Shown one piece after another: positions 61,645 through 64,000 of a stretch of 64,000 nucleotides of DNA. The notes under the pieces were generated by a model that saw nothing but the letters and a program-made list of their open reading frames with translations, was not told the DNA's origin and did not search any database. The translations under genes were made by a program, and so were the position numbers. Numbering within the stretch: the first letter of the stretch is position 1; every line of letters starts with the position of its first letter. This stretch comes from Candidatus Bathyarchaeota archaeon (GTDB lineage Archaea > Thermoproteota > Bathyarchaeia > Bathyarchaeales > Bathycorpusculaceae): positions 24,324 through 88,323 of the forward strand of contig JAMDCQ010000015.1 of assembly GCA_023488905.1 (NCBI GenBank), written 5' to 3'.

Positions 61645-61748
61645 GGGCGTCGCACTTAAACTGCTTAGGCACAGTTTTTGCTTTTAAGAATATCGCTTTT
61701 TCATTCCATCCATGAATTTGAGCAGCGGCAGATTACCGGACTTATTCT

Positions 61749-62016
61749 TATCAGTAGATCAAAAAAGAGTTGGTTGGGTTGCTTGGTTCTTGTGGAAGAA
61801 AAAAGCAGTCGATACATACTTTCACATTCACATGGCGGCGATTTCAACATAGAGATATGTTGTTCTTGTGGAGAAAAACCCACAGCCCACACCCAAACAG
61901 ACGCAGAAAAAAGCTGTAACCCCAAAACACAACCGCATACAGCTGCTGTCGTGTGGTGTGCCGTAAGCCGCCACACTCACATAAAGAGCGCAGAACAAAA
62001 TTTTGATCTACTGATA
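61749..62016 (-). repeat. Dispersed repeat family R2, copy 2, with 16-bp terminal inverted repeats
   Basis: A 268-bp element bounded by TATCAGTAGATCAAAA (61749-61764) and its exact reverse complement (62001-62016). The interior is homologous, inverted, to 20150-20380. No ORF is shared with the other copy and no transposase is near, so it is a MITE-like or other non-autonomous element. No target duplication was found by eye. Confidence 0.78.
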
Positions 62017-62493
62017 GGGGAGGGGCTCTCTGACAACAACAAACTCAAAATCAAAATGCACAACTACCCATAGAAACGATAAAAAAGTGGAAAATCGCAC
62101 GGTTGAATACCGTTCTTCCACTATAGATTTAGAGCAGGTCAAGCCTAAGCCTTATTGTTGACACGGTCCAGCTGAGCCATGTTTGGTCGCCACAGGTTCT
62201 TTATACCGCTTTAAACCTGCTGCTCAAGCCCAGATGCTTCAACATTAGGCAATGTCCAGCCCAAAGAGGCAAAGTCTTGGTCACACACCAATTTTTCGCT
62301 GTTTGAATTGGCGCGCTCTTGTGCCTCAGTGCATTGCATCTAAAGCTTGCTCCCTGACCTGCAATTACCTTATTGTATTTGGCAAGTAATATATTTTGCG
62401 ACAAATGCGGCACAAAAAAGTATGAAAATGCACCAATTGATACATACAGAAAAATCCACACCCTAACGTAGGTTACCCAAACAAACAGCGAAG
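62017..62493. other. Gene-free stretch containing source copy of the 99-bp inverted repeat
   Basis: Contains the 99-bp unit at 62265-62363. Some hairpin potential is visible (AGGTT...AACCT near 62190-62215). No gene or RNA family was recognised. Confidence 0.45.
62265..62363. repeat. 99-bp unit, copy 1 (inverted partner of the leuS insert)
   Basis: Identical, base for base, to the reverse complement of 63611-63709. It contains small hairpins (TTGGT...ACCAA and CCAATT...AATTGG) and lies outside any convincing gene. Confidence 0.9.
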
Positions 62494-63400: not shown

Positions 63401-64000
63401 TTATTCAATGTAGATTGCTGGCTGATAGGGCATTGTCATTGCTGCGCGGCTTTTGGGGTCAAAGCGTGCGGTGTCGGATTCACTGTAAACAGCGATTTCT
63501 GCGTTGAAGCGGTCTTTGTAGAATGCTGCCGCGCCCTCGAGGATTGTTTTTTCGTCTACTTCACGGATTTTTGTCATGTTAGCTTTGCGGTCGCCTGAAA
63601 CTTTGGTAAGTGCAGGTCAGGGAGCAAGCTTTAGATGCAATGCACTGAGGCACAAGAGCGCGCCAATTCAAACAGCGAAAAATTGGTGTGTGACCAAGAC
63701 TTTGCCTCTCATTGGTGCGATGTCCTTCATATGCGGCTTCAGTGCTGGGTCAGCGGCGAATTCCTTCATCAACTCGCTTATTTTTGCTTCGCCAGCAACG
63801 GTTTTCTCTACGATTTTGAGGTAAACCTGCCACTTCCATTCTGCCGCTGTGTAGTAGATTATGCGTTTAGGGGAGATTTTCATGGCTTTTAAGATGTTAT
63901 TCGTGTCCCCCATAACATCGGTCACAAGGTTTTCCTGCTCTTCAGCGGCCACATCAACCTTTGCGGGGTCATACACTGGCAGAATGGAAGTGGCAGGTTT
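63401..64000 (-). pseudogene. leuS: Leucyl-tRNA synthetase C-terminal part (partial), interrupted by a 99-bp insert
   Basis: The frame is open to the window edge at 64000. From there it reads SILPVYDPAKVDVAAEEQENLV...KPHMKDIAPM, then enters the 99-bp insert, where a TGA stops it. After the insert the same frame resumes LTKVSGDRKANMTKIREVDEKTILEGAAAFYKDRFNAEIAVYSES...PYQPAIYIE, the normal archaeal LeuRS end (stop at 63401). Deleting exactly 99 bp restores IAPM-LTKV in frame. The N-terminal catalytic part is outside the window. A damaged tail would impair tRNA-Leu recognition. Confidence 0.85.
63611..63709. repeat. 99-bp unit, copy 2 inside leuS
   Basis: Exact reverse complement of 62265-62363. 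Carries an in-frame stop for leuS. No target-site duplication was seen at its ends. Confidence 0.9.

Follow-up and report, generated by a model that had tools for sequence, protein, structure and literature searches.

How an exact inverted copy of 99 nt came to lie in the leuS gene of an archaeon, and whether it belongs to the organism at all, is the question raised by this locus. The sequence-only reading of the window, by which we mean the whole stretch of 64,000 nt that was analysed, had placed three origins side by side: a mini-element, a template switch, and an assembly or MDA artefact. Our analyses favour the last of these and, with a probability of roughly 0.92, we consider the copy to be a two-switch amplification chimera that was kept near a contig end, neither a mobile element nor a product of the cell's biology. 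The copy does stand in the deposited record, yet it is almost certainly no feature of the organism.

Anatomy of the inverted copy

The elements of the locus, in window coordinates, are:

62132–62364, minus strand: candidate structured RNA gene of about 233 nt that holds the source block (from a 22-copy alignment, covariation and a covariance model)
62265–62363, plus strand: source block of the copy, approximately the first 99 nt of the candidate RNA gene, the RNA being read on the minus strand
63401–64000, minus strand: leuS, C-terminal part only, matched by LeuRS models and cut by the contig end
63605–63609, plus strand: microhomology GGTAA at one joint, matching TTACC at 62365–62369
63611–63709, minus strand: inverted copy of 99 nt, exact reverse complement of 62265–62363, replacing about 21 nt of leuS
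63823–63845, plus strand: source of the terminal fold-back copy, within leuS
63978–64000, minus strand: second inverted copy, of leuS 63823–63845, taking up the final 23 nt of the contig

The basic description given by the sequence-only reading holds: copy and source are identical at every letter, and the copy sits in leuS, a minus-strand gene, within the part that codes for the C-terminus. An exact match of 99 nt is far beyond what chance would be expected to produce. The two arms are in inverted orientation, spaced by 1,247 nt, and they extend to 105 nt at 99% once the GGTAA/TTACC match beyond a single mismatch is included. The sharing of TTACC with the source, pointed out earlier, is likewise real; the complementarity is confined to one joint, where it is separated from the copied block by that one mismatch, and the return joint shares none. 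Nor is there a target duplication, as had been stated, the boundaries being unable to slide (63610 is G and 63709 T; 63611 is T and 63710 C). A search for the 99-bp unit elsewhere in the genome, proposed earlier as a check, returned two copies in 1.79 Mb, the source and the one in leuS, and no other. Exact inverted pairs of at least 18 nt and at most 10 kb apart are equally scarce in the 64-kb window, which holds only two, both reaching into its last 400 nt with one arm. An element that contains the source is common to sister species (85% identity, 386 nt, G011), and the copy in leuS is thus the derived one.

For the gene itself, the earlier interpretation was only partly right. Deleting 99 nt does restore the reading frame but does not yield a normal LeuRS end: when the 99 nt are removed and the product is aligned with 17 relatives, the joint shows a gap of exactly seven residues (APM-------LTKVSG, against, e.g., APMVPKVIKALTKVSG), and residues are present at this position in all 17. 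About 21 nt of leuS were therefore lost as 99 nt were gained, and the event is a replacement rather than a clean insertion. Similarly, the insert carries a stop, as claimed, yet it has two of them in frame, both TGA, rather than one. Recoding of these stops was considered and rejected, as the neighbouring ppa ends in TGA as a normal stop and the seven residues would be missing anyway; an archaeal mRNA intron seems unlikely as well, the ends of the insert showing no mutual pairing when folded with DNA parameters, and the missing 21 nt and the inverted twin being left unexplained. A search of the genome for a second leuS found none, and the remainder of the gene is absent from the assembly.

Inverted copies at the contig ends

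The contig (C14) ends at window position 64000, only 291 nt beyond the leuS copy, and it ends in the second of the inverted copies listed above; in the alignment with relatives, the residues encoded by these terminal 23 nt do not fit LeuRS. The pattern is not confined to this contig. When 4 kb at either end of each of the 23 contigs was examined (46 ends), a terminal exact copy of 14–127 nt was found at 13, inverted in all 13 cases, while direct terminal copies were found at 0 of 46. Most of the arms are short, 14–27 nt, the long ones including arms of 127, 99 and 99 nt (affected ends in G000 are, e.g., L093:1-127, L127:3902-4000 and L120:3923-4000), and the distance from the terminal copy to its source ranges from 32 to 2950 nt, with a median of 336 nt.

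Two controls indicate that this is an excess. At 11 of the 46 ends the inverted copy is at least 20 nt long, whereas random internal cuts of the same genome gave a copy of that length in 27 of 20,000 cases. The ends of contigs from three sister genomes, 40 in number, of which nine were N and 31 readable, showed no terminal inverted copy in any of the 31 (13/46 vs. 0/31, Fisher p = 0.001). Internal stretches, 356 kb in total, contained few longer-range inverted pairs, and at least one of these consisted of two copies of an interspersed repeat.

Comparisons with related genomes bear on what the affected ends should look like. At the right end of contig C12, colinearity with many genomes holds as far as the joint; the last part of the contig maps about 1 kb away and inverted in G011, G004, G009 and G012. 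Against G011, the sequence at the left end of C5 first proceeds forward and then doubles back over what it has just covered; its true continuation appears to be contig C7, with which it shares exactly 127 nt. These relatives show that the terminal copies of C5 and C12 are at odds with the true gene order. A DNA search with the end of C20 found no relatives. Exact overlaps of 127 nt also exist between several other contig ends and point to a de Bruijn assembler that used k = 127.

Origin of the leuS copy

The suggestion of an assembly or MDA artefact is strongly supported by this genome-wide excess; our verdict on the leuS copy follows from the presence of the same kind of false inverted copy at many other contig ends. 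It can also be compared with what is known of amplified DNA. Lasken and Stockwell (2007) sequenced 475 chimeras formed by phi29 polymerase and found 85% of them inverted, with partners mostly at most 10 kb apart and with intervening deletions, displaced 3' ends re-priming at short complementary stretches (PMC1855051). Tu et al. (2015) reported a peak of chimera distances at 250–300 nt, overlaps of 5–8 nt with a peak at 6 nt, and chimeras with two or more parts (PMC4595205). By this analogy, the orientation, proximity, short microhomology and deletion of the present copies fit well with the published phi29/MDA chimeras. The leuS copy and all 13 terminal copies are joined in inverted orientation to partners within 10 kb, the leuS copy to one within a few kb and with, at one joint, a short complementarity interrupted by one mismatch; 21 nt, or seven residues, are missing between the joined parts in comparison with the 17 relatives; and the data set holds many independent events, as seen at the 11 ends with copies of at least 20 nt.

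The setting would have been a strand-displacement amplification, phi29 multiple displacement amplification or an equivalent step with template switching. A nascent strand copying leuS may have been displaced after TTTGGTAAG and have re-annealed at GGTAAT, next to the RNA gene, on a displaced strand close by; 99 nt would then have been copied in inverted orientation before the strand switched back to leuS, about 21 nt farther along. The assembler would have retained this chimeric molecule near the contig end, presumably where coverage was thin, and the contig would then have halted at the second fold-back in leuS. The living cell would, on this account, carry an intact leuS. Some points do stand against such a chimera. 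Unlike the other contig ends, for which one switch is enough, the leuS copy needs two, and unlike the published phi29 chimeras, it has both within 99 nt and is kept inside a contig; the microhomology is broken by one mismatch and absent from the return joint; and the genome, with its long contigs and 91% completeness, is good for a single-cell library. The amplification of the sample is something that we infer here.

The anatomy alone would also fit a template switch in the cell, in which replication jumped 1.2 kb to the opposite strand and back, exchanging 21 nt for 99 nt in a strain or subpopulation: short template-switch mutations also leave a nearby inverted copy, a small deletion and short microhomology, with no target duplication. 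We nevertheless regard such a mutation as very improbable. It must have hit the only leuS found and would truncate it ahead of the conserved C-terminal part, and it accounts neither for the second fold-back, at a distance of 291 nt, nor for the dozen other fold-backs at contig ends.

A little less probable still is an artefact of computation only, with the assembler joining wrong k-mer paths and no chimeric molecule ever existing. The exact 127-nt overlaps of several contig ends, such as a de Bruijn graph built at k = 127 would leave, lend this some appeal, and both 127 and 99 are among the common k values of assemblers, so that the arm lengths of 127, 99 and 99 nt give a hint, though only a hint, in the same direction. 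Most terminal arms, however, are of 14–27 nt, below any such k in the final graph, and the exclusive inversion and short distances are the pattern of real MDA molecules (PMC1855051, PMC4595205).

The mini-element proposed earlier, or an RNA-derived copy of a small RNA gene inserted in leuS, is scarcely credible. The source does belong to a multi-copy RNA family, with one to five copies per genome, the leuS copy begins at about the 5' end of the RNA, and, like MITE-like elements, it is a short non-coding copy within a gene. Unlike them, it has no terminal inverted repeats and no target duplication, exists in two copies only in this genome, and is a partial copy of a longer gene, 99 of 233 nt, while the aligned RNA copies of sister species are full length (217–239 nt); we reject the mini-element because it is present in so few copies, duplicates no target and covers only part of the gene. 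The 21-nt loss and the DNA microhomology, which falls outside the predicted RNA, speak against an inserted element or RNA-derived copy as well. Just as negligible is the idea that a new archaeal small RNA was reverse-transcribed into leuS over its first 99 nt, from about its predicted transcription start.

A candidate structured RNA at the source

The more rewarding part of the locus is the source. The RNA of about 233 nt that holds it was aligned in 22 copies over 250 columns. Changes on both sides that keep the pairing were found at 35 of the 54 predicted pairs, and 93% of the cells pair; the structure was tested on the very alignment from which it came, which favours it, but the margin is large, with 0 of 500 shuffles reaching any of the five measures. 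Shifting the partners by one to three columns lowers the pairing to 30–35%. The assignment to the minus strand rests on the wobble pattern, G-U pairs of the minus strand being A-C on the plus strand; on a consensus energy that is much better on the minus strand; and on a TATA-like, AT-rich stretch that precedes the start by about 26 nt, together with runs of T after the end, seen in many copies.

A covariance model matched 29 of 61 genomes, with one to five matches each, the training sequences and the leuS fragment included. Besides the genus itself, the matches cover several further genera of the order, in some of which the RNA takes a shorter form of about 140 nt. An Rfam search with the RNA gave no match, and no shared gene neighbour was found within the genus in the loci examined. 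The candidate is well supported as an undescribed structured RNA family of this archaeal order.

Two observations concern the surroundings of the RNA. At three loci from other genera (L234, L246 and L248, in G044, G056 and G059), it lies 11–26 nt away from a reading frame of about 587 amino acids that is the same in all three, and the gene order is conserved on both sides; by eye, the frame is possibly an ATP-dependent DNA ligase. Close to the source in the present window, at 61741–62025, is a MITE-like interspersed repeat, present about 40 times in this genome and also in sister species, its ends, CAGTAGATCAAAA and TTTTGATCTACTG, forming inverted repeats.

For the record of this archaeal genome, our results mean that fold-back chimeras stand at about a quarter of the contig ends and that annotation near them is unreliable; broken genes and inverted repeats close to such ends should not be taken for pseudogenes or mobile elements. 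A quick test for such chimeras, from the assembly alone, is to set contig ends against random cuts in the interior of contigs. The structured RNA family was exposed as a by-product of this work, and it is more interesting than the leuS copy itself.
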